Shown here: piece after piece, positions 4,820 through 20,357 of the stretch | Position numbering within the stretch: the stretch's first letter is position 1 | Layout: each line of letters starts with the position of its first letter | DNA from: Cystobacter fuscus | Lineage (GTDB): Bacteria > Myxococcota > Myxococcia > Myxococcales > Myxococcaceae | Length of the DNA stretch: 64,000 nt | Assembly (NCBI RefSeq): GCF_002305875.1 | Contig: NZ_CP022098.1 | Coordinates: forward strand, 11,408,001 to 11,472,000 | Reading direction: 5' to 3' | The notes under the pieces: generated by a model | The model's database searches: none | Seen by the model: the letters and a program-made list of their open reading frames with translations, nothing else | Told to the model about the DNA's origin: nothing | Translations under genes and position numbers: made by a program

Positions 4820-4873
4820 GGGCCCGCCTTCCCGCACGAGGGCCCGGCATGGGCCCCCAGGGGCGTGCCTTTC

Positions 4874-5440
4874 CTAGGGGGCTTCCCCGTGGCGCGTCAA
4901 GAAGCTCTCGGGCACGGGGGTGGGCGTGGCGCGCGAGTGACGTGCCAACCAGTCGAGAATGAACTGATTGAAGGCGGAGAACTGGAGGAAGGTGGCCATC
5001 ACGTCCCCGAAGCACAGCGAGGCCCGCTCGAAGAGGGGCGACGGCCGGCCGGGGATGAGCAGGGTGCCATCCTGCCAGGTGCCGTTGTGGCTGCCGCTGT
5101 CGGAGACGTACCACATGCCCGTCTGCGCCTCCTCGTTGAAGGAGGCGTGCACGCGCGACACGGTGGGGTCCTCCACCATGATGTCGCTGTCGAGCGTGCG
5201 GCCCAGGACGATGCCCGTGGAGGGCGTCACCACATGCGAGCGCCTGCGCACCTCGAGCACCAGCGGCTCGGCGACCGTGGGACGGCGCAGCGACAGCCCC
5301 GTCATCGTCCTGCGGGAAAAGGCAGGACCCACGCCCACGGGAGTAGCCTCCCACACCAGCACCGGCCAGCACACCGCGCGCCGCACGGACTGGGGATCAT
5401 CCAGGAACTGCGACGCGAGGGTGGAGAACTTCAGGTGCAC
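4874..5440 (-). CDS. FHA-domain protein
   Basis: 188 aa. The GTG at 5440 is chosen because GGAGG lies 8 nt upstream and the composition upstream of it turns random. An N-terminal stretch of about 60 aa resembles the leader found in many small myxobacterial FHA proteins. The FHA fold follows, with VLGRTLDSDIMVEDPTVSRVHA (cut here to its key elements GR, S, SRVH), then SDSGSHNGTW. Residues Gly-Arg, Ser, His and the NGT(W) motif used for phosphothreonine binding are all present. It probably reads a Ser/Thr-kinase mark. It is followed after 54 nt by the TonB receptor gene on the same strand and may share its transcript. The partner kinase is not identifiable. Confidence 0.85.
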   Translation of the reverse strand: MHLKFSTLASQFLDDPQSVRRAVCWPVLVWEATPVGVGPAFSRRTMTGLSLRRPTVAEPLVLEVRRRSHVVTPSTGIVLGRTLDSDIMVEDPTVSRVHASFNEEAQTGMWYVSDSGSHNGTWQDGTLLIPGRPSPLFERASLCFGDVMATFLQFSAFNQFILDWLARHSRATPTPVPESFLTRHGEAP

Positions 5441-5712
5441 GGTTCCTGCCTCCAGCGCATGTGGCGAGGGCACCAAGATGTGCACGGTTTTCAACCGCGC
5501 TAGCCCCCATGACGCGGTGGGACGCGGGAGCACACAGCGGCACTCCAGAGGGAGGGAGCGCGCGCCGGCTCCGTCCAAACGCCGGGATGGAAGAAGCCGG
5601 CGTGTACACCTCGCGCGGGTGTCCTCCGAGGTGGGCCGCGCTGGCATGACCGCTGCTGTGGGGCGAGGGACCGTGCCACTCCAGGCGCGGGAGCAGGACA
5701 AAGGATCAGACG

Positions 5713-5970
5713 ATGTTGACGGCGGGAAAGCGGTTGGCGGTGTTCTCCATCCGCGAGGGCAAGGGCGGGAGCATCTGGGTGCGCGCGGGCAGCGCGTTCG
5801 TGAACAAGGACGGCTCACTCAACGTGTTGCTGGACGTGCTGCCGCTGGACGGCAAGCTGCACGTGCGCGAGGCGGCGGACAAGAAGGACTCGGCGGGAAC
5901 GGGCGGGGGCGGACGCTACGGCGTGGAGGGTGGACTGGACGCGCTGTCGGCGGCGGGGGGCCACTCGTGA
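5713..5970 (+). CDS. Small conserved-looking hypothetical protein
   Basis: 85 aa, starting at ATG 5713 with AAAGGA nine nt upstream. The first 55 residues (AGKRLAVFSIREGKGGS, VRAGSAFVNKDGSLNV, LDVLPLDGKLHVRE) look like one compact beta-rich domain. A Gly-rich tail (TGGGGRYG) follows. I do not recognise a named family. Its stop overlaps the GTG of the ComEA-like gene (GTGA), so the two are probably translated together, which hints at a DNA-related or envelope-related job but does not prove one. Confidence 0.75.
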   Translation: MLTAGKRLAVFSIREGKGGSIWVRAGSAFVNKDGSLNVLLDVLPLDGKLHVREAADKKDSAGTGGGGRYGVEGGLDALSAAGGHS

Positions 5971-6317
5971 GCAGGCGAGCGGGCTGGTGCGCGGTGGTGC
6001 TCGCACTGGTGGGGGTGCTCGGGGCGGCGGACGCGGAGGCGGCGGGCGCGAAGTGGCGCACCCGGTACACGGGCCAGGTGAACCTGAACGAGGCGACGCG
6101 CGAGCAGTTGGACGCGCTGCCGAGCGTGGGAGCCAAGGCCGCCCAGCGCATCATCGCCTTCCGGGAGAAGCGGCCCTTCAAGCGCGTGGAGGAGCTGGTG
6201 CGGGTGAAGGGCTTCGGCAAGAAGCGCTTCCTCCAGCTCAAGCCCTACCTGACACTCCAGGGCACCACGACGCTCAAGGCCGAGCGCGTGCGTGAGCAGG
6301 AGCCCGGCAAGGGCTGA
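5967..6317 (+). CDS. ComEA-like helix-hairpin-helix secreted protein
   Basis: 116 aa from GTG 5967, overlapping the previous stop by 4 nt. The N terminus has a signal or anchor segment (WCAVVLALVGVLGAADA). The rest is a ComEA-type double HhH domain: VNLNEATREQLDALPSVG, AKAAQRIIAFREKRPF, VKGFGKKRFLQLKPYL. ComEA proteins bind double-stranded DNA in the periplasm during transformation. Single-domain secreted forms like this are common in proteobacteria, including non-competent ones. No other competence gene is adjacent, so the DNA-binding part is well supported and a competence role is inference. Confidence 0.85.
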   Translation: MSRRAGWCAVVLALVGVLGAADAEAAGAKWRTRYTGQVNLNEATREQLDALPSVGAKAAQRIIAFREKRPFKRVEELVRVKGFGKKRFLQLKPYLTLQGTTTLKAERVREQEPGKG

Positions 6318-6830
6318 GCGCGGCGCAGGGCCGGTGGGCACGAGGCGCGGGCAGCGCCTCGGCCGTCTCGGTCACGGCCATGTCGGCTCGCCCTGGCCCT
6401 GATGTCCAACGCCTGTGCCTCACGGAGGCCACCGCCTGGCCGGGGGATGAGCCTGCACTACACGCCGCGCGAGGCCACGGGGACCGTGGTAGACGGAAGC
6501 TTGAGCGAGGCGTCTTCGCTCGCCCGAGCCTCCCCGCCCAAGCCCGACAGTGCGGAGCGGCCGCACCGGCACCGCGACTCGCGGGAGGCCGTGACGGCGG
6601 CAGCCCCTGGCAGGGTTGAGGGAAATGTGTGGCTGAGCGCCCTCGCGGCCCACTGCTGGCCAAGGAACTGTCGCGAGATTGGCCTGCACCGGAGCGGCGC
6701 TCGGCCTTGCTCGCTCCGGCAGCGGCCCTCCTCGACCCCTTTGCACCAGCCCGCCCCCTCAACAAGGCCCCCAGTGCGCCTATGCTCCACGCACCTGTCC
6801 GTTCCCGCAGTCAGGAAAGGAGCCGTTCAT
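6318..6830 (+). other. Intergenic, 513 bp, with a kinase-tail remnant
   Basis: No gene with convincing codon use was found here; the long frame that extends upstream of the methyltransferase has a random, Arg/Pro/Ser-rich composition. At 6344-6386 the minus strand matches 40 of 43 bases of 38104-38146, the last codons of the membrane Ser/Thr kinase gene (peptide TE.AEALPAP). This looks like the leftover end of a related kinase gene. Confidence 0.5.
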
Positions 6831-7805
6831 ATGCGTCGTCTCATCGCGGCGAGCGTCTTCTCCAGCCTCAACGTTCTTCTGTCCCCCGTGACGCTGCTCG
6901 GCTACGTCCTCTGGACCGGCGGTCTCTTCGTCCGGCGCGGATCGGGTGTATCGACAACGGCGCAGGGCCCCCTGTCCGCACGCTGGCTCGAGCACCACCT
7001 GGGGACCCGGAAGGACGAGCCGGCGGATCTGTTGATGAAGTTCCTGCCCGGTGTGCCTCCCCTGGGCCCACGCCTCGCGGCGGGCCCCATGCTGTTCGCC
7101 CACCGGCTGACGGGCTACGTGCCCAGGGCCTTCAGATACCCCTTCGAGGGCGAGGTGCCCCCACGATACCAGGCCTCCGCCCGGATCCCGTTCTTCGACG
7201 CCGCCGTGGACCGATACCTCGCGGACTTCGACCAGTTCGTCATCCTGGGAGCGGGTTTCGACACGCGCGCCTTCAGGCTTCCCAAGGACGGGAGGGTCCG
7301 CGCTTTCGAGGTCGACATGCCGAAGACCCAGGCGCTCAAGCGGGAGATGGTGGAGAAGGCCGGAATCGAATCGGCCCGAGTCACGTTCGTCTCCGCGGAC
7401 TTCGAGAAGGAGGACTGGCTCGAGCGGCTCGAGGACGCGGGGTTCGACGCCGGCAGGCCCGCGCTCTTCCTGTGGGAGGGCGTGACCATGTACCTGGAGA
7501 GGCAAGCCGTCGAGGACACCCTGCGCAAGATCGCCAGCACCGCCCGGGGGAGCGTCGTCGCGTTCGACTATTTCACGACCGAGCCGCTCGAATCGCGGGC
7601 GCTCTACTGGCGTATGGCGAGAGCAACGACCCAGGCCAGCGGTGAAACGCTGAAATTCGGCGTGGATTGCAGTCCACCGTTGAGCGAGCGCCTCACCGAG
7701 CTGCTCCGGTCTTGCGGACTCTCACTCGGCGAGCACCAGACCCTCGGGAAAGAGACGGAGGGGAAGCGCGCCTGGGGCGGCTTCGCCACCGCGATGGTGC
7801 TCTAA
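6831..7805 (+). CDS. Class I SAM-dependent methyltransferase (LCMT/TIGR00027-like)
   Basis: 324 aa. ATG 6831 is preceded by AGGAAAGGAG. An N-terminal hydrophobic segment (SVFSSLNVLLSPVTLLGYVL) suggests membrane attachment. The methyltransferase part carries YLADFDQFVILGAGFDTRAF (GxGxD SAM loop), FEVDMPKTQALK (acidic residue for ribose), VSADFEKEDW and ALFLWEGVTMYL. These are characteristic of the leucine-carboxyl-methyltransferase-like family that methylates small-molecule or peptide carboxylates, often in secondary metabolism. Length agrees with the family (about 280-320 aa). The substrate is unknown and neighbours give no further clue. Confidence 0.88.
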   Translation: MRRLIAASVFSSLNVLLSPVTLLGYVLWTGGLFVRRGSGVSTTAQGPLSARWLEHHLGTRKDEPADLLMKFLPGVPPLGPRLAAGPMLFAHRLTGYVPRAFRYPFEGEVPPRYQASARIPFFDAAVDRYLADFDQFVILGAGFDTRAFRLPKDGRVRAFEVDMPKTQALKREMVEKAGIESARVTFVSADFEKEDWLERLEDAGFDAGRPALFLWEGVTMYLERQAVEDTLRKIASTARGSVVAFDYFTTEPLESRALYWRMARATTQASGETLKFGVDCSPPLSERLTELLRSCGLSLGEHQTLGKETEGKRAWGGFATAMVL

Positions 7806-7851
7806 GTTCGAGTTTCGCACTCCCCCCTCTCACACGAACACTCCCCAGACC

Positions 7852-8124
7852 ATGCCCTCTCCTCACGACGACTCCCACCCCGACGTGCTCCGGCGAAGAC
7901 TGCTCGAGTTGAAGGAAACCCACCCGCTTCACACTCTCATCAAGCCCATGCTCCTGCGGGGCTACGCCACGGTCGGGTTCGTCTACGACCATCACCGGGC
8001 TCAGGACATCGAGGCTCCCTCCGTGGATGCCGAATATGCCTGGCTGGATGCGCAGGGGAACCTGCGCACCGACAGCATCCACGAGGATTACGATGCGAAG
8101 CATGGTTGCGCGCAGTTGTCGTAG
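7852..8124 (+). CDS. Hypothetical protein, possibly truncated
   Basis: 90 aa from ATG 7852, with no good ribosome binding site visible. The amino-acid composition (HTLIKPMLLRGYATVGFVYD, SIHEDYDAKHG) is balanced rather than the Arg/Pro bias of frame shadows here, so it probably is or was a real coding region. It overlaps the 3' end of the convergent lipoprotein gene by 37 bp, and its end may be an artefact of truncation. No family is recognised. Confidence 0.4.
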   Translation: MPSPHDDSHPDVLRRRLLELKETHPLHTLIKPMLLRGYATVGFVYDHHRAQDIEAPSVDAEYAWLDAQGNLRTDSIHEDYDAKHGCAQLS

Positions 8125-8384
8125 ACGACCTGCTTGAACGGGCCATGCCACTTCGAGCACTTGACGTAACAACAGACGCCCGTTTCCCCCACCTTCCCCG
8201 CGCCGGTCTGTCCGTCCGTCCAGGGCGAGGGCACCTCCAAAGTGGTGGTTGGATTCTCGGGAGCCGAGGTCTGCGTGGGGGCAGAGGTCTGTGTCTCCTC
8301 CAGCGAGACCTCGGGGCCACCACACCCAACCACGAGGGCCGCTCCCAACATCAACATGCTCACGCCAGCGAAAATGCTCTTCAT
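8088..8384 (-). CDS. Small Cys-rich lipoprotein
   Basis: 98 aa, starting at ATG 8384 with AAAGG about 10 nt upstream. The signal peptide MKSIFAGVSMLMLGAALVVGC ends in lipobox VVGC. The middle is a Thr/Pro-rich spacer with the duplicated unit QTSAPTQTSAPE. The C-terminal third holds a compact Cys cluster (GVCCYVKCSKWHG, NCAQPC), consistent with a disulfide-bonded secreted peptide. Similar small lipoproteins with C-terminal Cys modules are frequent in myxobacteria and have no assigned function. The divergent region upstream holds a fragment of another Cys-rich gene. Confidence 0.75.
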   Translation of the reverse strand: MKSIFAGVSMLMLGAALVVGCGGPEVSLEETQTSAPTQTSAPENPTTTLEVPSPWTDGQTGAGKVGETGVCCYVKCSKWHGPFKQVVYDNCAQPCFAS

Positions 8385-8746
8385 GAAGTGGACCTTTCAA
8401 CGATGCAAGAGAACGAACGTGGATGGCCCCTGCGCTGCAGCCAACTGCGCAGGCCGCGTGGGCAACTCCAGGTGCTTCAACATGGCGCGCACCCCGTCGG
8501 GTGCCGTCAAGTATGCCAGCCCCGGCGCCGCCCTGCCTTCCATCTTGTTCTGAGCGCGTCAGTCGATAACGAAGGGTTTTGGCGTACGTGAAGGAAGCCA
8601 GGCGGGTGTCTGGTGCAAGGGGGGGCACTTCATTCGCGAAGCATCTGCTCTCGAACGGCTCCCTCACCTCGGTGGGCTGATTCGGGCTCTGCTCATCAAG
8701 GATAGAGTCCCCGTCCATTCTGGCCGTGGAGTGGGGGGAAAGACTC
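8385..8746 (+). pseudogene. Fragment of a Cys-rich peptide gene (CAAANCAGRVGNSRCF module)
   Basis: Between two genes, 8424-8553 reads on the plus strand GPCAAANCAGRVGNSRCFNMA and ends at a stop at 8551-8553. No signal peptide or start belongs to it. About 65 bp here (near 8428-8492) is nearly identical to 10466-10530, where the same module sits behind a lipoprotein N terminus. It is therefore best read as a displaced or decayed copy of the same small-peptide gene. The rest of the interval, to the MBL pseudogene, shows nothing recognisable. Confidence 0.5.
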
Positions 8747-10117
8747 ATGCTTGGATTCGAGACCATTGGGAATGCCACACTCATCGCCTTTGATGGCAAA
8801 CCAAAGCTGGTCACGGATCCGTGGCTCAGTGATACCGCCTACTTCGGGAGCTGGGGGCTGAGCTACTCCATTCCACCGGAGCAACGGAGCCACATCCAGG
8901 AGTGCGAATACGTCTGGTTTTCACATGGCCATCCAGACCATCTGAACGGCGACTCGCTGCCCGCGCTCTCCGGCAAGAAGTCCTCCTGGGCGATCATGTG
9001 GGCAGCCGCATCTACGAGGCGCTGAGGGCCCAGGGGTTCAACGTCACCATCCTCCCGGAGCGAACCTGAACGCGCATCTCCAAAAACATCGAAGTGATGT
9101 GCATGACGGACTATTTCCAGGACTCCATCCTGCTGGTGAAGATTGGCAATCGACTCGTCATCAATCTCAATGACGCGGTCGATCATGGCTGGGCTGCGGA
9201 GGTCGCGCGGGTGGCCTCCCAGTATGAGGGGAACTTCCTCCTGAAGCTGAGCGGTTACGGCGACGCGGACATGCTCAACCTGTTCACGGAGGACGGGGAA
9301 CGCATCGAGCCCTGGGCCGCGAAGAAGTACCCGGTGGGCCGGACACTGGTCGGTCCCATGCGTCGGTACAATGCGCGCTACTTCATTCCCTTCAGCTCAT
9401 TCCACTGCTACCGCCGCCAGGACAGTCTCTGGGCGGAGGCCTACACCACGCCCATCGACGCGTACGCCGAAGGCTTCGACCTGCCTGGCGCCGAGGTGTT
9501 GTCCCCCTTCGTTCGGGTGGATTGTGAGACGGGTGCGGTGCTCGAGCTCCGGCCGCCCCCCCTCGGACAGGAGGCCCCGCGAGCCCGGGGAGTTCGGCGA
9601 CGACTGGAGCGAACCGCTCGGCCAGGAAGATCGCAAGAAGATCGCCGCCTACTTCAAGAACATGCAGGCGCTGGCCAGCAAGCTCGGCTTCGTGCGCTTG
9701 CGAGTGGGGGGGCGTGACTTCACCGTCGATCTGAACGACAAGCGCTCGAAGTACGGTGTCACCTTCGAAGCGCCACGGGGCTCGTTGATGACCGCGGTCG
9801 AGTACGAGGTCTTCGACGATCTGCTGATCGGCAACTTCATGAAGACCACGCTGCATGGGATGGACAGCCTGTACCCGTGGTTCACGCCGGTTGTCGCCAA
9901 GTACGCGGACAACGGGCGCGCATACTCGAAGGTCGAGGTCGTGAAGTACTTCGCCGAGTACCTCCGCCGGCAGCCCAGGAACTTCCTGCTGCACCAGCTC
10001 GAGAACCAGGCGTCCGACTGCTTCCGGACGATGGTCCCCAAAGACGCGAAGTTCTATGGAGCGGCGAAGCGGGTCTATTTCGCCCTCAAGGGTCTTCCGC
10101 CGCCGCTCGATGCGTAG
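8747..10117 (+). pseudogene. Broken MBL-fold metallo-hydrolase
   Basis: The protein is spread over three frames. Part 1 (from ATG 8747) has LVTDPWLSDTAYFGSW and the metal-binding motif SHGHPDHLNGD (His at 8924). A lost base at about 8981 shifts the frame; the sequence continues as VLLGDHVGSRIYEALR and then meets an in-frame TGA at 9067-9069. It resumes as VMCMTDYFQDSILLVKIG to about 9553, where a run of C residues (9554-9561) shifts to the frame that carries GEFGDDWSEPLGQEDRKK to the stop at 10117. At least two frameshifts and one nonsense codon make it a pseudogene. An intact product would be about 455 aa, of the CMAH/UlaG-like lactamase-fold hydrolases. Confidence 0.85.
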
Positions 10118-10168
10118 CCTCGGCTGCGTCCCTCTCCACGCAAGGCGCCATCACCCCCAGCCGACGAA

Positions 10169-10184
10169 TGTGATTGCATTCACA
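10169..10184. promoter_or_regulatory. CRP-type palindrome TGTGA-N6-TCACA
   Basis: TGTGATTGCATTCACA is a perfect match to the CRP/FNR-family consensus half-sites with the standard 6-bp spacer. It lies about 105 bp upstream of the (now broken) lipoprotein start at 10290. No sigma-70 boxes are obvious around it. Binding by a CRP homologue is inferred from the motif only. Confidence 0.45.
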
Positions 10185-10289
10185 CGAACGCAGTGAGACG
10201 GATCACGGCCCTCGCCAACCCTCTCAGGCACAGTTCTCCACGTCGAGGCGATGAACGCCTCGCCAGCCATCTGGCTTTGGAGAACACCA

Positions 10290-10600
10290 TGACGAGGATG
10301 CCCTGGAAGAGTCTGGCGATTGTTGGTCTGTCCCTGCTGCCCGCCTGTGGCGGCGAGGAGCCGGGTACGACGAGGACGGAGTTGGCCGGACCGACGACCG
10401 AGAACCTCGCCCAGGCGGGAAGCGCGCTCGCCGTGACCGGGACCACCCAGACCCACCAGGTCTCGCCCCTGCGCTGCAGCCCACTGCACAGGCCGCGTGG
10501 GCAACTCCAGGTGCTTCAACATGGCGCTCAGGCCCTGCCCTCGCTTGGGGGAGGCCACCGTGCAATGGAAACATGCCGTTGGAATGCGGCGCTATGTCCT
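10290..10600 (+). pseudogene. Lipoprotein with Cys-rich C-terminal module, frameshifted
   Basis: ATG 10290 opens a lipoprotein signal (KSLAIVGLSLLPACGG, lipobox LPAC) followed by a Thr-rich spacer (TTENLAQAGSALAVTGTTQT). Near 10460 the plausible coding frame shifts: the next frame reads CAAAHCTGRVGNSRCFNMAL, the same module as at 8428-8492, then LRPCPRLGEATVQW. In the original frame this stretch becomes Pro/Arg/Gln-rich. A single-base slip therefore separates signal peptide and Cys module. The downstream end is not sharply definable. Intact relatives would be small secreted Cys-rich peptides of unknown role. Confidence 0.55.
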
Positions 10601-10652
10601 CCCCGCGGGCCCCCTCCAGATGCCAGCCCTGGATCTGGAACGCTTGCCACCC

Positions 10653-12287
10653 TCAGGCCGGCTCCCGGAGCGCCCAGCGCAGCAGGGCCAGCGGCATGGC
10701 GAGCAGCCATGTCACCACGAACACGGCCCCAGCCCGTTCGGGCACGTAGGCGTCGACGCAGGCGCCGGCGAGCGCGATGACCGCGAACGCCGCGAGCGCC
10801 CAGTCCAGCGTGAGCCCCGCGACACCAAAGATCGCCGCGAGGAACAGTTGATCCACCGCGACGATATGGAGCGGCGCGATGCCAAACCGGAGCGCGAGCA
10901 TCCGGTGCGCGAGGAGCGTGGGACCGACAACCAGGAAGAGCCTGGCGGACCGCCTGCCAGGAGCGAGCCTGGAGATCCGCTCGCGGAACACCACGTTGGC
11001 AACGATCGAGGCGACGATCATCCCCACGGGAATGAAGAAGAGATCCCTGGGACCCGGCTCGAGCCGCGTGCCGAGGCGGGCGAGGACGGTGGCGCAGAAT
11101 CCAAGGATGAAGACGATGCAGATACCGGCGATGCTCAACCGCTCCCGCCGCACCACTTCCGGATCCCGCACGGGAAGGCTCGCGAGGTGCTCCTCGAGCG
11201 CGGCGATGAGCGCCGCCATGGACGGAAAGCGCTCGGCCGGCTCTCTCGCGAGGCCCCGACGGAGGATGAGCGCGAGCCACCCGGGAATGCCCGGGCGCAC
11301 GGGGGGTAGCCGGAACTGGCCGTCGAGCACGCTCCGGGACAGGGCGGAGAGATCCTCTCCGGCGAAGGGCGGCGCCCCGTACACCGCGGTGTAGAGCGCG
11401 ACACAGAACGCGAACTGATCGCTCGCGGGTGTCGCCCGCTCGCCCAGGAACAGCTCCGGCGCCATGTACGAGGGCGTGCCCATCAAGGTGCCCCGGTGTG
11501 TCAGAGGACTCGCGAGAGCACTCGGACTCGCGCCGGGCCGCCGCTCCTCCCCGGGGGAAGCAACGCTCCAGGAGCCCTCGCCGGGGCGCACCGCGAGCGC
11601 GGCGATGCCAAAGTCGGCGACCCGCGCCCGCCCGTCCTTGCCGACGAGCACGTTCTCGGGTTTGAAATCACGATGCACGAGTCCGGCCTCGTGTGCGGCA
11701 GCGAGGCCCCGGCCGGCCTGCGCCAGCATCGCCAGCACCTCCGGAACGGAGCGCACCGCGCCCGCGAGCCACTCCCGCAGGTTCTGGCCATCGACGAACT
11801 CCATCGCGATGAAGACCCGGCCCTCGTGCTCGGACACCTCGTGAACGGCGACGACGTTCGGGTGCGAGAGCCGCGCGAGCGCCTGGGCCTCGCGCAGGAG
11901 CCACTCCCGCGCGACCGTGTCCCGTTGGAGCAGCTTGAGCGCCACGCGCCGGTCCAGCAGCGCGTCATATCCCATGTAGACGGTGCCCATTCCACCCTCA
12001 CCCAGCTTGCGGATGACGGCGAATCGCCCGAGCCCGGCGGACTCCTCTGGATGGGTGACCACGGAGGGCTCCCGCGCGAGGACCGCCTCGGCCAGCACGG
12101 CGGGTGGATGCGCGAGGAAGCCCGCTCCCGCCGCACGGTCGTGGACGAGGAGCTTCTCCACCGCCTCACGGAGCGCGACGTCGCCCGCGCAGGACTCGTC
12201 GAGCCGCCGCGCCGCGTCCGCGGGCTCCAGGTCGACCAGGGCGTCGAACAGCTCCTCGAGCCTTCTGGGATCCACCGCCACGCTCAC
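10653..12287 (-). CDS. Ser/Thr protein kinase with C-terminal membrane domain
   Basis: 544 aa from GTG 12287, overlapping the sigma-factor stop by 4 nt; GTG 12281 is an alternative. Residues 1-80 are a helical leader. The kinase has Gly loop LGEGGMGTVY (95-104), catalytic Lys118 in VALKLL, HRDFKPEN (205-212), ADFGIA and GTPSYMAPE, so it should be active. The C-terminal 140 residues contain four or more hydrophobic helices (IAGICIVFILGFCATVL, FFIPVGMIVASIVANVVF and others), placing the kinase in the inner membrane. Coupling to an ECF sigma gene suggests it phosphorylates that sigma factor or a regulator of it. This arrangement is known for some ECF groups (EcfP/PknT type). Confidence 0.92.
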   Translation of the reverse strand: MSVAVDPRRLEELFDALVDLEPADAARRLDESCAGDVALREAVEKLLVHDRAAGAGFLAHPPAVLAEAVLAREPSVVTHPEESAGLGRFAVIRKLGEGGMGTVYMGYDALLDRRVALKLLQRDTVAREWLLREAQALARLSHPNVVAVHEVSEHEGRVFIAMEFVDGQNLREWLAGAVRSVPEVLAMLAQAGRGLAAAHEAGLVHRDFKPENVLVGKDGRARVADFGIAALAVRPGEGSWSVASPGEERRPGASPSALASPLTHRGTLMGTPSYMAPELFLGERATPASDQFAFCVALYTAVYGAPPFAGEDLSALSRSVLDGQFRLPPVRPGIPGWLALILRRGLAREPAERFPSMAALIAALEEHLASLPVRDPEVVRRERLSIAGICIVFILGFCATVLARLGTRLEPGPRDLFFIPVGMIVASIVANVVFRERISRLAPGRRSARLFLVVGPTLLAHRMLALRFGIAPLHIVAVDQLFLAAIFGVAGLTLDWALAAFAVIALAGACVDAYVPERAGAVFVVTWLLAMPLALLRWALREPA

Positions 12288-12853
12288 TCCTTCGAGGCCG
12301 AGAGCCGTTCGTGCAACCAGGCGCGGGCGAAACGCCATTCGCGCTCGATGGTACGGGGGGTGACCCCGAGCGCCTGGGCGATCTCCTCCTCGGACAGGCC
12401 GCCGAAGTAGCGCATGAGCACGACACGGGCCTTGCGCGGATGCTCGGCCTCGAGCTGCCCGAGCGCGGCATCGACGGCGAGCACGTCCTCGGTGGGCAGG
12501 CCCTCCGCGGCGACCTCGAAGGCCGCCTCGAGCGCCTCGCCCGGCTGCCCACCACCCCGCTTGTGCGCGGCCTTGCGGCGCACGTGGTCGACGATGAGCT
12601 CGCGCATGGCCTGGGCCGCGGCGCCGAAGAAGTGGGCACGACCGCTCCAGCCGGGATCACTGCGCCGGACGAGCTTGAGATAGGCCTCGTGGACGAGGGC
12701 GGTGGGCTGGAGCGTCTGCCCGGGCCGGAGGTGGGCCATCTGCGCCGCGGCGACCCGGCGCAGTTCGTCATAGACGATGGGGAACAGTTCCCCGGCGGCG
12801 CGCTCCTCGCCGCGGCCGGCGTCCTCCAGGAGTTGCGTGACGTCGCGTGCCAT
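12284..12853 (-). CDS. ECF RNA polymerase sigma factor
   Basis: 189 aa from ATG 12853; the longer upstream frame has no coding character. Region 2 carries RPGQTLQPTALVHEAYLKL and RAHFFGAAAQAMRELIVDH, signatures of the TIGR02999 ECF subfamily. Region 4 carries VVLMRYFGGLSEEEIAQALG and TPRTIEREWRFARAWL, the DNA-binding helix-turn-helix. No anti-sigma gene is adjacent. Instead a membrane Ser/Thr kinase gene overlaps its stop codon, so regulation by phosphorylation is likely. Target promoters are not identified. Confidence 0.92.
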   Translation of the reverse strand: MARDVTQLLEDAGRGEERAAGELFPIVYDELRRVAAAQMAHLRPGQTLQPTALVHEAYLKLVRRSDPGWSGRAHFFGAAAQAMRELIVDHVRRKAAHKRGGGQPGEALEAAFEVAAEGLPTEDVLAVDAALGQLEAEHPRKARVVLMRYFGGLSEEEIAQALGVTPRTIEREWRFARAWLHERLSASKE

Positions 12854-13023
12854 GACCCGTGAATCTCTCAAAAGAGCAAGGCAGTGGGTAGGAGCGAGAC
12901 CACGTGGCAGCCAGAGGTCACCGAAAAAAATGAGCGGACCCATGTCGGGTCTTTTTCCCGGCCTGCGGATGGATGGGCGGGACGCAGGAAGAACCTGCTC
13001 CACACCCACGAAAGGGAGACCCG

Positions 13024-14256
13024 ATGATGATTTCCATCCATGAGAATTCCACCCGCCGTTACCTGGCCGTGACTGTACTCGCCGGAGGCCTGGTGCTCGG
13101 CGCGTGCGGACCCTCCAACGAACAGCAGGGACAGAAAGAGGAAGAGGTGCTGGACGAAGTGGGCATCCAGGCCATGGCGCTGACCGCCGACTCCTGCGCC
13201 AGACTGAAGGCCGTGGGGCAGCCCATGGAGCGCAACTACACGCTGTTCGTGAACGGAGACCTCCGCAAGCCCTTCATCGCCTGGTGCGATGCCGACGGTG
13301 ACACCTATCTGAACCTGCCGACCGGAGGCGGCCGCAACTTCTCCCAGTACCTCGAGGTGGATGGAACGTCGGTCTCCACCAGGTGGGCCAAGGTCCGGTT
13401 GGATCCGGTGGCGATGACGCTCGACGTGAACGACGCCCGGTTCACCACGTCCACCGGAAGCATCCCGGGGTGGAACAAGTACTACGCGGCCTATGGCGAG
13501 GCGGGAGACTGCGTCACGTACGACTCCTCGACGGGCCGGGCCAACGTGGACCTGCGCGGGCTGCCCTTCGCCGTGAGCGCGACGTGGAAGACGGACGGCT
13601 GGTACGCCGCTGGCGGCTCCACCAGGTCCTCGCATGACCAGGTCGTCGACGTGTCGGGCGGTGGCTACTGCGGCTCCACCACCGTCGACGGTGCCTTGAC
13701 CGTGCGCTACGTGGGCTATGACTCCTGCGCCACCGTGGCGGCCGCGGGGGGGACCCTGAACCAGGACTACACGCTGTACCTCGGCCTGGACCCCAGCAAG
13801 CCCTACCTCGCCTACTGCCACAGCAGCGGCAATACCTATCTGACCCTGCGGGCCATCGGAAGCGGCAGCAACTTCTCCCAGTACCTCGAGGTGGATGGAA
13901 CGTCGGTCTCCACCAGGTGGGCCAAGGTCCGGTTGGATCCGGTGGCGATGACGCTCGACGTGAACGACGCCCGGTTCGCCACGTCCACCGGAAGCATCCC
14001 GGGGTGGAACAAGTACTACGCAGCCTATGGCGAGGCGGGAGACTGCGTCACGTACGACTCCTCGACGGGCCGGGCCAACGTGGACCTGCGCGGGCTGCCC
14101 TTCGCCGTGAGCGCGACGTGGAAGACGGACGGCTGGTACGCCGCTGGCGGCTCCACCAGGTCCTCGCATGACCAGGTCGTCGATGTGTCGGGCGGTGGCT
14201 ACTGCGGCTCCACCACCGTCGACGGTGCCTTGACCGTGCGCTACTTCTACCAGTAG
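13024..14256 (+). CDS. Lipoprotein with two tandem GON domains
   Basis: 410 aa from ATG 13024 (AAAGGGAG upstream; ATG 13027 also possible). The signal peptide ends in lipobox LGAC. After a short acidic spacer two GON-like domains follow, residues about 57-230 and 235-410. Each opens with a DSCA motif and contains YTL, W/YC and LDVNDARF segments; GON is the C-terminal domain of ADAMTS proteases and also occurs in bacterial secreted proteins. The second halves of the domains are encoded by 375-bp DNA copies that differ at only three bases, while the first halves differ strongly. It probably acts as a surface-exposed binding protein; no enzyme domain is present. Confidence 0.85.
   Translation: MMISIHENSTRRYLAVTVLAGGLVLGACGPSNEQQGQKEEEVLDEVGIQAMALTADSCARLKAVGQPMERNYTLFVNGDLRKPFIAWCDADGDTYLNLPTGGGRNFSQYLEVDGTSVSTRWAKVRLDPVAMTLDVNDARFTTSTGSIPGWNKYYAAYGEAGDCVTYDSSTGRANVDLRGLPFAVSATWKTDGWYAAGGSTRSSHDQVVDVSGGGYCGSTTVDGALTVRYVGYDSCATVAAAGGTLNQDYTLYLGLDPSKPYLAYCHSSGNTYLTLRAIGSGSNFSQYLEVDGTSVSTRWAKVRLDPVAMTLDVNDARFATSTGSIPGWNKYYAAYGEAGDCVTYDSSTGRANVDLRGLPFAVSATWKTDGWYAAGGSTRSSHDQVVDVSGGGYCGSTTVDGALTVRYFYQ
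13336..13710 (+). repeat. Direct repeat, copy 1 (375 bp, period 534)
   Basis: Copy 1 of an intragenic repeat encoding the second half of GON domain 1. Compared with 13870-14244 I count three substitutions: Thr/Ala in RF(T/A)TST, and two silent changes. The flanking first halves of the domains are much less similar, which points to recent gene conversion or duplication. Confidence 0.9.
13870..14244 (+). repeat. Direct repeat, copy 2 (375 bp, period 534)
   Basis: Copy 2 of the intragenic repeat, encoding the second half of GON domain 2, offset 534 bp (178 codons) from copy 1. See copy 1 for the differences. Confidence 0.9.
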
Positions 14257-14346
14257 GTGGAGCTGGGTTGGCGGGGTCCTCGGGAGCTCCGCCTTCAGCA
14301 AGGTCCCCGTCCTCGGAGGCGCTTCTCGGCAGCGACCTGCCAACCC

Positions 14347-15897
14347 CTAAAGCGGCGGATGAAAGCCGGTGTCCAGGCTGCCGTCTGGCAGAAGCTGAAC
14401 AAGCTGGTGGAACGTCTTTCCGCCAGCCGAGGCAGGCGCGAAGCGATAGAGAAGCACGGTGCCGTTGGGCCCCACCGTGAGCTTGAGAATGCTCGAGATC
14501 CCTTGCGCGGCGAACGCCGAACGGAAACGCTCGGCGACCGCCCTGTCGACCCGCCCGTTCGAGTCCAGGCGTGCCAGCACCACTGGAGTCCGTTCTTCGA
14601 ACGCGTTCAAGAGACCCACTCGGGCGACGATGAAGCCTCCGTCCGCAAGAGCGCTCAGGTGGTTGGCTTCGAAGGGAAGCTCCTCCCGCTGGAAGGTGTC
14701 GTCCAGGGTTCCGTCAGGGTTCAGACGCATCACCTCGGAACGAGCCTCACCCGTCACAAAAGCGGTGACGAGCTTTCCGTCCGCCTGAACAGCCAGGGCT
14801 GTTGCCTGGCGCAACTCCTTCTCGCGCTGCATCCCCAAAAGCCGCTCATGAAAGACCTCATCAGGCTGCCCTTCAGCGCTGATGGAGTAGACAGCCGGGA
14901 GGAGAGACTCCGCATATTCGGGATTGTCGGCGACGATGAAACGTCGCCCATCGGCACCGATTGCGCCGGGAATGGAATCGGCCACACCCAGCTCTGGCAT
15001 CTCCCTCCATGAAGACAGGTCTGGCAGTCCCTCGGGAGTGATCCGCAGGATGGGGCTCCCGGACTTGGAATCCGCCTCACGACGGAAGCCTCCATACATC
15101 AGCAGCCCGCCATCCGACTGGAGCTGGACCTCCGCGACCAGGCCCTCAACGTGCTGCTCGGCCGGGAGATTGGGGATGGACACCCGGCGGAGTTCTTCTC
15201 CCTCCGGGCTGACGATCAGGGCCAGCTCGTCCTTGTGATTCGGAGAGCTGGAGATCGACCCTGATCCCAGGAGGATTTTTCCATCCGACTGAAGCCAGAC
15301 GTGGCCTGGATGCGTGGGCGTGAGGCTCGAGCAGCGATCCTGTCCCTTGAAGGTGGGATCGATGCTCCCATCCGGCAGGAGCCGGGAGAGCTTCATGCCG
15401 TTCTTCCGTGTTCCTTCCTTGGAGATGAAGCCTTGGATGAGGATCCTGCCATCGGGCTGGTACGTGACCCCCAGGACTTCCGTGCTGAACCCATGCTGGC
15501 CAGCTTCCCACAGGGAAACCTCGCAGGGCGAGGCGAACGCGAACCCCGTCAGCTTGCCGTAGAGGGCCTCCCCGGGCATGAACCACACGCCGAAGGACGC
15601 CACGCGCACCGTGACATCCAGGAAGGGGACTCTTCGGGGCAGGGGCAGCACGGCCAGGATGAGCAGGAGGACCCCAGGCACGAGCGAGCTGATGACCATC
15701 CTGCGTGTCTGGGACATGCGCACCAACCACACCGGCCAGGTGAGCGCGAAGTAGTAGAGCGTATAGGAGAACAGGCCCGTCACCAGCCAACCTCCACCGC
15801 CCGACCGGTCGGTGCTTTGGTTGGTGTGGATCACCACGCCAATGGCCACGGGGATGGCGAGGACCAGCGGCCAGAACCACAGGAGACGTCTCCACAT
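14347..15897 (-). CDS. Membrane protein with delta-60 repeat domain
   Basis: 516 aa; ATG 15897 is chosen because the first hydrophobic helix begins right after it and the upstream frame has no coding bias. The N-terminal 150 residues hold four hydrophobic helices (LLWFWPLVLAIPVAIGVVI and others). The rest is made of beta-propeller-like delta-60 repeats with the signature LLPDGSIDPTF, LNPDGTLDDTF and LLPDGSLDTGF, each with a QxDGK/G.L turn. Delta-60 repeats are typical of myxobacteria and Bdellovibrio surface or secreted proteins of unknown function. Here the propeller is tethered to the inner membrane. It is transcribed divergently from the ABC exporter 100 bp away. Confidence 0.85.
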   Translation of the reverse strand: MWRRLLWFWPLVLAIPVAIGVVIHTNQSTDRSGGGGWLVTGLFSYTLYYFALTWPVWLVRMSQTRRMVISSLVPGVLLLILAVLPLPRRVPFLDVTVRVASFGVWFMPGEALYGKLTGFAFASPCEVSLWEAGQHGFSTEVLGVTYQPDGRILIQGFISKEGTRKNGMKLSRLLPDGSIDPTFKGQDRCSSLTPTHPGHVWLQSDGKILLGSGSISSSPNHKDELALIVSPEGEELRRVSIPNLPAEQHVEGLVAEVQLQSDGGLLMYGGFRREADSKSGSPILRITPEGLPDLSSWREMPELGVADSIPGAIGADGRRFIVADNPEYAESLLPAVYSISAEGQPDEVFHERLLGMQREKELRQATALAVQADGKLVTAFVTGEARSEVMRLNPDGTLDDTFQREELPFEANHLSALADGGFIVARVGLLNAFEERTPVVLARLDSNGRVDRAVAERFRSAFAAQGISSILKLTVGPNGTVLLYRFAPASAGGKTFHQLVQLLPDGSLDTGFHPPL

Positions 15898-15997
15898 GCC
15901 CCAACTATAGCGGAGGGTCTCCAGCCCTGAGCCCTCCGGAGAATCGCCCGGCGCGCGGTTTATCGTCCGTTTAAAAATGGGGCGTAGGGTCCTTCCC

Positions 15998-17788
15998 ATG
16001 GACCCACGCAACCGCCTGAAAATGGATGGGACCGCGTCCTCCGGCCCCGCGTCCTTCAAGAGCTTCTTCAACCTGATCGCATCGACGAAGCCATCGCTGC
16101 CCCTGCTCATCACCGCCCTGGTGCTGAGCGTGGGCTCGACGCTGGTGAGCCTCCTCGTTCCGCTCTTCACCAAGAGCCTGGTGGATGGCTTCTCGCTCGC
16201 CTCCCTCGACTACCGCCAGATGGCGCTGATCGCCGCGGCCTTCACCCTCCAGGCCGCCACCAGCGGCATCTCGCTCTACCTGCTCACCTTCGTGGGCCAG
16301 CGGATCGTCGTCGGCATCCGAGACCGGCTCTGGAAGAAGCAGCTGGCCCTGCCCATCCGCTACTTCGACGCGCACGGCACCGGAGACCTCATCTCCCGCA
16401 TGGCCAACGACACCGCCGTCGTCAAGGCGCTCATCACCGAGAACCTCTCGAGCTTCGTCTCGGGCATCCTCGCCATGGTCGGCTCGGTCAGCCTGCTCAT
16501 CTCCCTGAACTGGAAGATGGCCCTCGTCATGCTGGTGGCCCTGCCGGTGGGCATCGGCGTCATCGCGCCCCTGGCTCGCAGCATGCGCCGGGTGTCCATG
16601 GGGACGATGGACGAGAACGCCCGCTTCACCACCCTGCTCGCCCAGGTGCTGTCGGAGATCCGCCTGGTGAAGGCCTCCAACGCCGAGAGCCGCGAGTACC
16701 GCAAGGGCCAGGAGACCGTCGAGCGGCTCTTCCAGTTCGGCCTCAAGGAGGGCCGTGTCCAGGCGCTCGTCGGGCCGATGATGGGCCTGGTGATGATGGG
16801 CATGCTCGTCCTCGTCATCGGCTATGGCGGGCTGCTCGTCTCGTCCGGGCAGCTCTCGGCGGGAGACCTGGTCGCGTTCATCCTCTACCTGATTCAGGCC
16901 ATCATCCCCGTGGGCCAGCTGACCGCCTTCTTCGTCCAGCTCCAGAAGGCACGCGGCGCCACGCAGAGCATCATCACCCTGCTGGAGACGCCCGAGGAGA
17001 AGCCGGAGGAGGGAGTGCACCTCGAGGCGGCCCGCCTGCCCATCCGCTTCGACCGGGTGAGCTTCAGCTACCTGCCGGGCGAGCCCGTGAGCCGGGAGCT
17101 GAGCTTCTGCCTGGAGCCCGGCACCGTGACGGCCATCGTCGGCCCGAGCGGCTCGGGCAAGACGACACTCTTCTCGCTCCTGGAGCGCTTCTATGAGCCG
17201 GACTCCGGGACCATCCTCATCGGCTCGAAGCCGCTGCGGGAGTTCTCCCTGGCCTCGTGGCGCCGCCGCATCGGCTACGTCCCCCAGGAGAGCCCGCTCA
17301 TGGCGGGGACGATCCGCGAGAACATCGCCTATGGCCTCGACCGGGAGCCGAGCGATGAAGAGCTCATCGAGGCCGCTCGCCTGGCCTATGCCGACGAGTT
17401 CATCCAGGGCCTGCCCAACGGCTATGACACGGAGGTGGGCGAGCGGGGCGTGAAGCTCTCCGGTGGACAGCGGCAGCGCATCGCCATCGCCCGGGCGTTC
17501 CTGCGCAACCCCGACATCCTCATGCTCGACGAGGCCACCTCCAGCCTGGACAGTACCTCGGAGCACTTCGTCAAGCTGGCCCTGGAGAACCTGATGCGAG
17601 GCCGGACGACGCTGATCATCGCGCACCGCCTGTCCACGGTGATCGATGCGGACCTCATCCTCTTCGTGGAGAAGGGGCGGTTGACGGGGCGCGGCACCCA
17701 CTCGGAGTTGGTGGACAGCCACGAACTCTACCGGAGCTTCGCCGAGCAGCAGCTCCGCTCCCACGACAGCCGCGAGGCACGCGCCTGA
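15998..17788 (+). CDS. ABC exporter, fused membrane and ATPase domains (LmrA/MsbA type)
   Basis: 596 aa from ATG 15998 (GTAGGG upstream; ATG 15977 is an alternative). Residues 25-330 form the six-helix type I exporter domain. The ATPase domain has Walker A GPSGSGKTT (382-390), Q-loop YVPQESPL, signature LSGGQRQR (487-494), Walker B ILMLDEATSSLD and H-loop IAHRLST, so it is complete. It works as a homodimer or half-transporter for drugs, lipids or peptides. It is followed after 42 nt by a response regulator and a histidine kinase, which suggests that the two-component pair controls it, as in bacitracin/drug-sensing and heme-sensing (Hss-Hrt) systems. Confidence 0.93.
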   Translation: MDPRNRLKMDGTASSGPASFKSFFNLIASTKPSLPLLITALVLSVGSTLVSLLVPLFTKSLVDGFSLASLDYRQMALIAAAFTLQAATSGISLYLLTFVGQRIVVGIRDRLWKKQLALPIRYFDAHGTGDLISRMANDTAVVKALITENLSSFVSGILAMVGSVSLLISLNWKMALVMLVALPVGIGVIAPLARSMRRVSMGTMDENARFTTLLAQVLSEIRLVKASNAESREYRKGQETVERLFQFGLKEGRVQALVGPMMGLVMMGMLVLVIGYGGLLVSSGQLSAGDLVAFILYLIQAIIPVGQLTAFFVQLQKARGATQSIITLLETPEEKPEEGVHLEAARLPIRFDRVSFSYLPGEPVSRELSFCLEPGTVTAIVGPSGSGKTTLFSLLERFYEPDSGTILIGSKPLREFSLASWRRRIGYVPQESPLMAGTIRENIAYGLDREPSDEELIEAARLAYADEFIQGLPNGYDTEVGERGVKLSGGQRQRIAIARAFLRNPDILMLDEATSSLDSTSEHFVKLALENLMRGRTTLIIAHRLSTVIDADLILFVEKGRLTGRGTHSELVDSHELYRSFAEQQLRSHDSREARA

Positions 17789-17830
17789 CTCGCGGAGTGT
17801 TCCCTGTAGAATGCGAACCCAGGAGGGCGC

Positions 17831-18505
17831 ATGGCGAGGATCATGGTCGTCGATGACGACCCCCACATCCGCGAGGTGGTCCGACACTTCCTCGGGACCG
17901 CGGGCTTCGACGTCGTCGAGGCCTCGGACGGCCGGGAGGCCCTGAGCCTGCTGGAGCGGACCCAGGTGGACCTGCTCGTGCTGGACGTGATGATGCCGAA
18001 GATGGACGGCTGGCAGCTCTGCCAGGAGCTCAAGCGTCTGCGAGACGTCCCCATCCTGATGCTCACGGCGAAGGGGGAGACTTCGCAGAAGCTCAAGGGC
18101 TTCGAGCTCGGGGCCGATGACTACCTGGTGAAGCCCTTCGAGCCCGCGGAGCTCGCGGCCCGCGTCAAGGCGCTGCTCAAGCGCTACCGCATCGAGGCGT
18201 CGCAGAGCGTGCAGGTCGGCAAGCTCTTCCTCAGCCGGAAGACATACCTGATCCAGGCTGGCGAGGAGAGCCTCACCATTCCCATGAAGGAGTTCGAGTT
18301 GCTCTTCAAGCTGGGCAGCTCGCCGGGGAAGACGTTCAGCCGGGAGCAGCTCATCCAGGCCATCTGGGGCCCGGACTTCGAGGGGACGGATCGCACCGTG
18401 GACGTGCACGTCAACCGCCTGCGCGAGCGGTTTCCCGAGGAGCGCTTCGGCTATCGCATCACCGCCATCCGCGGCTTGGGCTATCGGCTGGAGCTCGCAC
18501 AGTGA
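17831..18505 (+). CDS. OmpR/HssR-family response regulator
   Basis: 224 aa from ATG 17831 with AGGAGG close upstream. The receiver domain has acidic pocket DDD (8-10), phospho-acceptor Asp52 (LLVLDVMMPK), Thr in MLTAKGE and Lys in YLVKPFE. The C-terminal winged helix has TIPMKEFELLF, REQLIQAIWG and RTVDVHVNRLRERF. Sequence style resembles HssR of heme-sensing systems. Its last codons overlap the GTG of the histidine kinase gene (GTGA). Confidence 0.93.
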   Translation: MARIMVVDDDPHIREVVRHFLGTAGFDVVEASDGREALSLLERTQVDLLVLDVMMPKMDGWQLCQELKRLRDVPILMLTAKGETSQKLKGFELGADDYLVKPFEPAELAARVKALLKRYRIEASQSVQVGKLFLSRKTYLIQAGEESLTIPMKEFELLFKLGSSPGKTFSREQLIQAIWGPDFEGTDRTVDVHVNRLRERFPEERFGYRITAIRGLGYRLELAQ

Positions 18506-19698
18506 AGTGGCCCGCCCTGAAGCGCACGCCTCGCCTCGGGGCAGGGCTGGTCACCCTGGCCATGCTGGCAGGGCTGGTCGCGGAGTGGACGCTGGTGTCC
18601 TGGCTCAAGGATGCCGCCCTGACGGCCCTCGGTGTACGGCTCTCTCCCTACGTCAGCCAGGTCATCGATCTGGTGGTCTCGCTCTTCCTGTTCGGCTTCA
18701 TCATGAGGTTCATCGGAAAGGCCTTCTTCCACTGGCGGATGACCATCTTCACCGTGTTGAACGACGCGCTGAGCCGCATCGCGCGAGGGGACTTCTCCGT
18801 CAGCGTACCGGTGGATGAGACGGGCGATGACACGCGGAAGAACCCGGTCCTCGAGGTGGCCGTCAACATCAACCAGGTGGCCGAGGCCCTCCAGCGCATG
18901 GAGGCGATGCGTCAGGAGTTCATCTCGAACGTCTCCCACGAGATCCAATCGCCCCTCACCTCCATCCGAGGCTTCGCACAGGCCCTGAGAGAAGGCGGGC
19001 TGTCCGAGGAGACCCGTCAGCACTACCTCGCCACCATCGAGGCCGAGAGCCGGCGTCTCTCACGGCTGAGCGAGAACCTCCTGAGGCTGAGCTCGCTGGA
19101 CTCGAAGGCCCATGCCCCGGTCCCGCGGCGCTATCGGCTCGACAGCCAGCTGCGCGAAGTGGTCCTGGCCGCCGAGCCTCAGTGGACGGCCAAGGGGCTC
19201 GACATCGAGGCGGACCTGGACGCCGTGTACCAGACCGCGGACGAGGACATGCTGAATCAGGTCTGGACCAACCTCGTCCACAACGCCATCAAGTTCACTC
19301 CCGCGGGCGGAAGGATGGGGATCGAGCTGCGGCTCGAGGGCGGACAGGCCCTCGTGCGGCTCACGGATTCGGGGATTGGCATCTCGCGGGAGGACCTGCC
19401 CTTCGTCTTCGATCGGTTCTACAAGGCGGACAAGGCTCGCAGCCGCACCGATGCCTCGGGTGGGAGTGGACTGGGGCTCGCCATCGCCCGGAAGATCGTC
19501 GAACTCCACGGAGGGCGCATCGAGGCGCTGAGCGAGGGTCTGGGCAAAGGCTCCTGCTTCACGGTGCGCCTCCCCTCCGCGGAGCCCTACCTGAAAGCAC
19601 CCGAGCCTGCTTCATCGGACACGTCTTCGGAGCAGGGCTTGGAGCCGGGAGCGCAACCCGGCACGGTTCGAAGTGCACGATGGAGGACGTACGTATAG
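18502..19698 (+). CDS. Sensor histidine kinase
   Basis: 398 aa from GTG 18502, coupled to the response regulator. Two hydrophobic helices (about 15-33 and 50-72) enclose a very short periplasmic loop. HAMP-like linker, then HisKA with His146 in SNVSHEIQSPLTSI. The ATPase has N-box NLVHNAIKF, G1 DSGIGI, F-box FVFDRFYKAD and G2 GGSGLGLAI. The short extracytoplasmic loop is typical of kinases that sense membrane stress or their own transporter. The last 35 or so residues after VRLPSAEPY are low-complexity and run into a sequence that is repeated at 21149-21176, so the normal C terminus may have been altered. Confidence 0.92.
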   Translation: MKWPALKRTPRLGAGLVTLAMLAGLVAEWTLVSWLKDAALTALGVRLSPYVSQVIDLVVSLFLFGFIMRFIGKAFFHWRMTIFTVLNDALSRIARGDFSVSVPVDETGDDTRKNPVLEVAVNINQVAEALQRMEAMRQEFISNVSHEIQSPLTSIRGFAQALREGGLSEETRQHYLATIEAESRRLSRLSENLLRLSSLDSKAHAPVPRRYRLDSQLREVVLAAEPQWTAKGLDIEADLDAVYQTADEDMLNQVWTNLVHNAIKFTPAGGRMGIELRLEGGQALVRLTDSGIGISREDLPFVFDRFYKADKARSRTDASGGSGLGLAIARKIVELHGGRIEALSEGLGKGSCFTVRLPSAEPYLKAPEPASSDTSSEQGLEPGAQPGTVRSARWRTYV

Positions 19699-19722
19699 GA
19701 GGGATGGGGGCCGTGTTGAGGG
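19695..19722 (+). repeat. Dispersed repeat A, copy 1
   Basis: TAGG(A/C)GGGATGGGGGCCGTGT followed by GAGG, shared with 21149-21176. The stop codon of the histidine kinase lies in this copy. Confidence 0.5.
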
Positions 19723-19771
19723 GCAGTGCCAGACGCGCACTGCGTTTGGTTCCGTCAGGTAACCCAGTGTG

Positions 19772-19789
19772 CCCACACGAGTCGTCTGA
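19772..19789 (+). repeat. Dispersed repeat B, copy 1
   Basis: CCCACACGAGTCGTCTGA, identical to 20340-20357. Both copies are preceded within about 20 nt by TCAGGT. A diverged third copy is in the inverted repeat at 20956-20987. Confidence 0.6.
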
Positions 19790-19811
19790 CACCCTTCCTG
19801 GGAACGCGCGT

Positions 19812-20174
19812 TCAAGGCGCCGGCGCGAGGACAGTCCGGTCGATCCATCCCCGGGCGGGAGTGGGATCGAAGTCTTTGCGGTAGTCCGCCAGGAAGCGCC
19901 CATTCGAGGGGCACGACTCCACCAGGTTCGCGACCCAGTAGGCGCCGCCACAGGGGATCGTGTCGATGGGCGTGGTGGAGGTGGCCGTCTTGTAGACGTA
20001 CACGGTGGCGCACACGAACGTGTAGTCGCGCCCGGGATTCTGACAGGTGTTGGTGAGCGCCTCGGCGAGGGCGTCCGTGGGCCCTGCTTCTTCCTGGACC
20101 TCCAGCGAACCACACCCCGCCAGCAGGCCCACCACCCCAGCCGCGAACCACCCACCTCGAAGAAGAATCGTCAT
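19812..20174 (-). CDS. Small Cys-containing lipoprotein
   Basis: 120 aa from ATG 20174 with GGGAG about 7 nt upstream. The signal peptide ends in lipobox LLAGC. The mature part has two Cys pairs (NTCQNPG, FVCATVYVYK, TIPCGGAYW, ESCPSNGRF) separated by short beta-like strands, and is probably a disulfide-stabilised secreted domain. No family is recognised. It stands alone between repeat copies and converges with the histidine kinase gene. Confidence 0.75.
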   Translation of the reverse strand: MTILLRGGWFAAGVVGLLAGCGSLEVQEEAGPTDALAEALTNTCQNPGRDYTFVCATVYVYKTATSTTPIDTIPCGGAYWVANLVESCPSNGRFLADYRKDFDPTPARGWIDRTVLAPAP

Positions 20175-20339: not shown

Positions 20340-20357
20340 CCCACACGAGTCGTCTGA
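20340..20357 (+). repeat. Dispersed repeat B, copy 2
   Basis: Second exact copy of CCCACACGAGTCGTCTGA (compare 19772-19789). Confidence 0.6.

Follow-up and report, generated by a model that had tools for sequence, protein, structure and literature searches.

The window, a stretch of 64,000 nucleotides from the genome of Cystobacter fuscus, carries on its minus strand a gene for an ECF sigma factor of 189 amino acids (12284-12853) and, adjoining it on the same strand, a gene for a Hanks-type Ser/Thr kinase (10653-12287). The sigma factor matches the TIGR02999 profile with 211.9 bits (cut-off 126.15; E = 6.5e-63) and Pfam family PF07638 with 193.8 bits (cut-off 21.1; E = 3.3e-57). Residues 90-323 of the kinase match PF00069 (E = 3.9e-39), and Pfam recognised nothing in its C-terminal part. 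Translation from the GTG at 12287 would give a kinase of 544 amino acids and translation from the better-placed GTG at 12281 one of 542; kinase residues are numbered here from GTG 12287. The original prediction of an ECF sigma factor paired with a Ser/Thr kinase is confirmed by these profile matches.

The host genome is a single contig of 12.35 Mb with 156 kinase matches and one TIGR02999 match over the cut-off, which is the sigma factor at 12284-12853. A sigma factor and a kinase of the same six-helix architecture are kept in two genomes of the Archangium genus (our genus g3) and in Minicystis, and this retention argues that the architecture did not arise by chance. The sigma factor is 90-92% identical to the Archangium orthologues and 72% identical to that of Minicystis, and the kinase 71-73% and 53%, respectively. 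Genus g3 includes Archangium violaceum; the related genome G005 was judged to be strain Cb vi76 of this species, and G002 carries the same genus code.

Two more sigma-kinase neighbours were noticed in the host genome, at loci L116 (G000:C1:5852074-5853386) and L115 (6863359-6864923). Their sigma factors are not TIGR02999 matches and retain an acidic residue at the position of Ala52 in the sigma factor described here, and the L116 kinase also has several hydrophobic segments towards its C terminus. Within the window, a metal-hydrolase-like gene at 8726-10117 appears by eye to be split over the overlapping frames 8726-9025, 9094-9717 and 9371-10117, perhaps as a pseudogene; the two pieces scanned with Pfam gave no match. 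Two short Cys-rich coding stretches that resemble each other (C..CxGRVGNSRCFNMA-like) were also seen by eye, at about 8400-8500 and at 10470-10530, in possible small lipoprotein genes whose frames are apparently disturbed.

Gene junction and neighbouring genes

The sequence GTGA is present at the sigma/kinase junction (12284-12287), where three in-frame GTGs compete as the kinase start. A Shine-Dalgarno sequence, AAGGAG, lies 5 nt upstream of GTG 12281 and overlaps GTG 12287, and its position favours 12281 as the start and makes the GTGA overlap doubtful. In both Archangium orthologues the GTG equivalent to 12281 lies 3 and 4 nt beyond the end of the sigma gene, with no overlap, and in Minicystis rosea GTGA is found at the junction. 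The two genes are thus tightly spaced, and their overlap is not a conserved feature. Of the 4-nt overlap originally described, the GTGA itself stands, but the start that it implies is disfavoured and the overlap is not kept in Archangium. Translational coupling through GTGA was rejected as evidence, because neither Archangium-genus orthologue has the overlap and the start codon within GTGA itself overlaps the Shine-Dalgarno sequence.

A search with Pfam recognised no anti-sigma domain in the divergent lipoprotein or in seven ORFs between 6804 and 18502, a scan that covered part of the small ORFs and in which three of the seven ORFs had no Pfam match of any kind. Within this scope the predicted lack of an anti-sigma gene holds, and the Ser/Thr kinase gene adjoins an ECF43-type sigma factor with no anti-sigma recognised among the scanned neighbours. 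Both the GTGA overlap and the missing anti-sigma gene are weaker arguments for control by phosphorylation than the features described below.

Region 2.2 of the sigma factor

Region 2.2 of ordinary sigma factors contains an acidic DAED motif, in place of which ECF43 members have uncharged residues, as described in three papers (PMC8999054; PMC8103513; PMC13147305). These papers also report that a Thr in region 2.2 of ECF43 members is phosphorylated by the neighbouring kinase, within the motif STTA of EcfP and at Thr51 of EcfK. The rule used here to place the phospho-site Thr was drawn from PMC8999054 and PMC13147305. By this rule, alignment places the motif QPTA of our sigma factor at the DAED position and its Thr51 (codon 12701-12703, minus strand), the predicted phospho-switch, at the EcfP/EcfK phospho-position.

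The fourth position of the motif is Asp or Glu in all 32 other sigma domains compared from the host genome and is Ala52 in the sigma factor at 12284-12853. These 32 are drawn from the 44 other PF04542 matches and comprise 30 loci and the two sigma factors that neighbour kinases, which were excised from L115 and L116. Alignment of region 2.2/2.4 in search of a phosphorylatable Thr had been proposed as a check of the original prediction, and the residue is indeed found: Thr51 is present in 80 of 80 relatives (the best 80 of 309 found in named genomes). It is likewise invariant in a four-row alignment of the window's sigma factor, the two Archangium-genus sigma factors and that of genome G052.

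The linker between the sigma domains (residues 95-119) contains no Ser and no Thr, which makes phosphorylation of the kind reported for the EcfK linker unlikely in this sigma factor. Ala107, with Glu106 and Glu109 close by, likely matches the column of EcfK T106.

We also compared Thr51 with the presence of a kinase neighbour across the family. TIGR02999 matches over the cut-off occur in 45 of 96 family genomes, for a total of 64 genes including that of the window; the other 63 were all read. Thr occupies the phospho-position in 25 of 25 relatives with a kinase within 2 kb and in 16 of 38 without one (Fisher 4.5e-7), although for 2 of these 38, which lie near contig ends, a kinase may have been missed. 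The remaining kinase-less genes have Ala, Met, Arg, Pro or Val at this position.

On a quick tree, a single clade holds 36 of the 38 genes that have no kinase neighbour. The Thr position underwent six or more changes on this tree, where all 26 kinase-linked rows have Thr, and the presence of a kinase four or more; with so few changes in the latter, the independent-pairs test (p = 1) is without power. The correlation between Thr and kinase is therefore not independent of ancestry; it hints at a link between the two and does not prove one. Many of the TIGR02999 sigma factors with no kinase neighbour (L046, L071-L073, L275-L277 and others, mostly from genus g19) have Ala at this position, in the motif QPAV.

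Kinase catalytic domain and N-terminal extension

The catalytic domain of the kinase (11205-12029, minus strand) carries the complete set of Hanks motifs: a GEGGMG glycine loop at residues 96-101, K118, E133, HRD at 205-207, DFG at 225-227 and APE at 276-278. All are invariant in the four kinases compared, which are those of the window, of the two genus g3 genomes and of Minicystis.

Ahead of this domain is an N-terminal extension of about 67 amino acids (12081-12281, minus strand). A profile of the extension, built with the window sequence as its first row and 24 of 50 listed upstream stretches added, matches residues 6-55 of the Xanthomonas kinase PknS (PDB 9EED) with an E value of 8.3e-9. 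PMC13147305 calls the 83-residue extension of PknS conserved among Xanthomonadaceae homologues. The extension also occurs on partner kinases in Planctomycetota, Acidobacteriota and other groups, and thus, judged by sequence, it reaches wider than Xanthomonadaceae.

The extension profile gave 31 listed matches in the 96 family genomes, with 25 of them within 3 kb of a TIGR02999 sigma factor over the cut-off, 22 within 600 nt and 6 with none within 3 kb. Counted from the other side, the extension is present within 3 kb of 25 of the 64 family TIGR02999 sigma genes. In the host genome there is one match to it among the matches listed, compared with 156 kinase matches. Because sigma-linked kinases supplied the seeds of the profile and the search scored only some candidates in each genome, these counts are neither a blind nor an exhaustive test. 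We infer that the extension may serve as a docking aid through which the kinase recognises its sigma factor.

A six-helix membrane module

Directly behind the catalytic domain is a predicted six-transmembrane C-terminal module (10656-11162, minus strand), with helices at kinase residues 376-405, 413-433, 442-467, 472-493, 496-514 and 516-540. The AlphaFold2 model, based on a 25-row alignment, has six long helices with a mean pLDDT of 90.4 and a pTM of 0.80. Only 1-8 residues separate the helices and nothing lies beyond the module, and these short loops leave no room for a further domain within it. Hydropathy alone gives four to six helices depending on the homologue; the count of four in the original prediction is replaced by the six of the model. 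Arg383 and Arg462 are invariant in all 25 rows.

The location of the membrane domain at the C terminus had been called correctly, but as a peculiarity it does not hold, since this arrangement is usual for partner kinases of this sigma family and the oddity is that almost nothing follows the helices. Downstream of the 80 relatives described above, 11 have no kinase in range, 10 have a kinase cut by a contig end and 59 have a complete one. By hydropathy, 52 of these 59 partner kinases have one predicted helix with 301-806 amino acids past it. The other seven comprise three with no helix, two with two helices and two with several, namely those of Archangium violaceum and Minicystis, in each of which hydropathy counts four. 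The single helix and C-terminal periplasmic domain that characterise PknS are thus replaced in the window's kinase by six helices.

The module has at least 35 matches in at least 24 of the 195 Myxococcota genomes searched. Outside of the window's own genome and genus g3, 20 of 22 matches that were fetched are in frame with a kinase, and the other two are cut by contig ends. A spacer of 114-133 amino acids separates kinase and module in 20 of 20 other myxobacterial kinases and is absent here, where the two are fused directly. The constancy of the spacer (L067, L068, L226-L245) suggests that it is a separate, defined domain. L227, being nearly a copy of L226, was omitted from alignment A3.

By sequence, the module matches no Pfam family convincingly: a scan of 25 members yielded five weak matches, each for a single member (best E = 0.0039), and none for the module of the window. 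A fold search returned a best Foldseek E value of 0.23 and a best VIA Z score of 9.9, to a de novo barrel, which is below the level trusted for helical bundles. TMEM45A (Z 9.7, rmsd 4.0, 151 aligned) also lies below that level.

One contig-cut copy, L236 (G052:C392), also has the end of the kinase C-lobe running directly into the module. On a separate contig of the same genome, L082 (G052:C230) is a cut kinase beside a sigma factor 58% identical to ours. L236 and L082 may be parts of one kinase with a direct fusion of catalytic domain and module.

A conserved cassette with a divergent lipoprotein gene

The pair is part of a three-gene cassette (10652-14244, genes on both strands), a stretch common to the two Archangium-genus loci at 80-81% nucleotide identity with unmatched flanks. 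The shared stretch extends from 10652 to 14220 at one locus and to 14244 at the other, that is, from the kinase stop to near the end of the lipoprotein gene, and we count this agreement with gene ends in favour of a cassette. Beyond this stretch, positions 4000-22000 of the window match nothing else in the 20 kb of sequence surrounding each of these loci.

The third gene (13024-14256, plus strand) is divergent from the pair and encodes a lipoprotein in which a GON-like repeat occurs twice; both Archangium-genus genomes retain it alongside the pair, at 69-74% identity. Orthologues this close were found in 3 of the 12 genomes tested, the three that have the pair, and distant relatives in six others. 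The two GON-like repeats are nearly identical to each other, and two more GON genes are present in the host genome near 2.286 and 2.293 Mb.

Between the divergent genes is a conserved 27-nt block, ACCCGACAYGGNNCCGYTCATTTTTTT (12924-12950, minus strand), which is a candidate promoter or regulatory site. A search for this block in three genomes, allowing up to 3 mismatches, found one site per genome only. A single site per genome yields no regulon, and the block may be kept by descent. The block was also considered as a terminator hairpin and rejected, since by eye neither Archangium-genus sequence preserves the stem. The restriction of close lipoprotein orthologues to pair-bearing genomes, together with the conserved block between the genes, makes the lipoprotein gene the first candidate target, and perhaps it is the gene that the sigma factor controls.

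The pair is found in the host, in 2 of 6 genus g3 genomes and in none of three other genomes of the window's genus. In these three, neither a TIGR02999 match over the cut-off nor a match to the module was found; two of them share the next gene. A clean empty site was sought in the congeners and none could be demonstrated, since the 20-kb stretches of G032 and G033 match the window's first 26 kb only at 14352-15923 and 14339-15928.

Discussion

From sequence comparison, the most likely explanation for this locus is that phosphorylation of one threonine by the membrane kinase switches on the partner sigma factor. We consider it quite probable that the locus as a whole is a one-step relay from membrane to RNA polymerase, of the ECF43 type, with Thr51 as a single switch and with gating by the six helices. 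The sigma factor would be made inactive by QPTA, which replaces the acidic DAED that normally meets the beta-prime clamp. The kinase, probably helped by its N-terminal extension, would recognise the sigma factor and phosphorylate Thr51, and the negative charge thereby restored would permit binding to core polymerase. The bundle right behind the catalytic domain would gate the kinase. Because no domain lies past this bundle, sensing probably takes place within the membrane, the signal being a lipophilic ligand, a lipid state or a membrane partner. The likely target would be the promoter of the GON-domain lipoprotein gene, perhaps with self-activation via the shared intergenic block. Control by phosphorylation in the manner of EcfP/PknT, as originally proposed, is thus supported by the sigma family, by QPTA with Thr51, by the complete adjacent kinase and by the PknS-type extension.

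It is improbable that an anti-sigma factor encoded elsewhere holds the sigma factor while the kinase acts on that anti-sigma or on unrelated targets. There is precedent in PknB, which acts on RshA, the anti-sigma of SigH, according to PMC13147305 and PMC8999054; moreover, the genome has 156 kinase matches, and our anti-sigma search covered the neighbours of the pair only. However, none was recognised beside the pair, and sigma factors of this family, kinases with the extension and the Thr are found together. Region 2.2 also has no acidic contact residues, and release from an anti-sigma alone should therefore not suffice for activity.

A somewhat less likely alternative is activation at multiple sites as in EcfK, where important phospho-sites would lie in the linker that joins sigma domains 2 and 4, and Thr51 would be one among several. 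In PMC13147305, EcfK is phosphorylated at T51 and at four linker residues, with T106 called critical, and Xanthomonas EcfK with T51A alone is functional, meaning that Thr51 need not be the only switch. The linker of our sigma factor, with no Ser or Thr and a probable Ala in the T106 column near two Glu residues, argues against this arrangement. Least likely of all, and very doubtful, is that the cassette was acquired recently or is in decay, and that the pair has little function. The patchy distribution of the pair, in its own and two of six genus g3 genomes and absent from three congeners, and the differing DNA that flanks it at each locus would fit such an origin. Against this reading, however, the frames are open, the sigma factor and the kinase are 90-92% and 71-73% identical to their genus g3 orthologues, and even at the distance of Minicystis the catalytic and switch residues are invariant.

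A broader proposal is offered tentatively, as one that we hold somewhat short of even. The module may be an undescribed family of intramembrane sensors of myxobacterial Hanks kinases, whose direct fusion here would turn a membrane-borne signal into a phosphorylated, active sigma factor via a single protein. This circuit of sensor kinase, sigma factor and lipoprotein would move as a 3.6 kb cassette, and the extension shared with PknS would be a docking module that pairs one kinase of about 150 with its one sigma factor.

Few worked examples exist of sigma factor activation by direct phosphorylation, and the locus also touches on the question of how about 150 Hanks kinases are kept distinct within one genome. 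It represents a minimal system, with one sigma factor of the family, one recognised kinase bearing the extension, a linker with no competing phospho-sites and a small putative sensor. With these characteristics, the locus would allow one to ask whether a single phospho-site suffices for activation, whether the extension docks the sigma factor and whether the signal is sensed within the membrane.

Comparison with known systems

The original prediction contrasted the kinase with those that have a PASTA-type sensor. PASTA kinases such as PknB and StkP have the same type of catalytic domain, but Pfam found no PASTA repeats in the window's kinase, and the match to NF033483, the profile of PASTA-domain Stk1/PknB kinases, reached 209 bits where the cut-off is 450; the comparison was dropped. 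The contrast is also beside the point, as PknS itself is predicted to cross the membrane with one helix and has three TPRs in its periplasmic region (PMC13147305), whereas here there are six helices and nothing past them. The other myxobacterial six-helix Hanks kinases, L067 and L068 for example, have a homologous module but include the spacer that is absent here, and no sigma factor like that of the window was found in the fetched stretches around them.

EcfP/PknT of Vibrio parahaemolyticus resembles the pair in its sigma factor motif, from which the likeness is drawn: an uncharged substitute for DAED that includes a Thr, STTA there and QPTA here. PMC8999054 reports a polymyxin response for that system. 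Another counterpart in our comparison is EcfK/PknS of Xanthomonas citri (PDB 9EED is PknS 1-364), which like the window has an ECF43-type sigma factor adjoining a Hanks kinase, a Thr at the T51 position and a homologous N-terminal kinase extension. EcfK differs in its motif, QATE, and in its phosphorylated linker (PMC13147305). Control by phosphorylation is therefore an already known mode, and the part that is different here is the polytopic sensor in place of the usual large C-terminal one. This polytopic type was seen in 2 of the 59 partner kinases compared, and it may already stand in published ECF43 survey tables.
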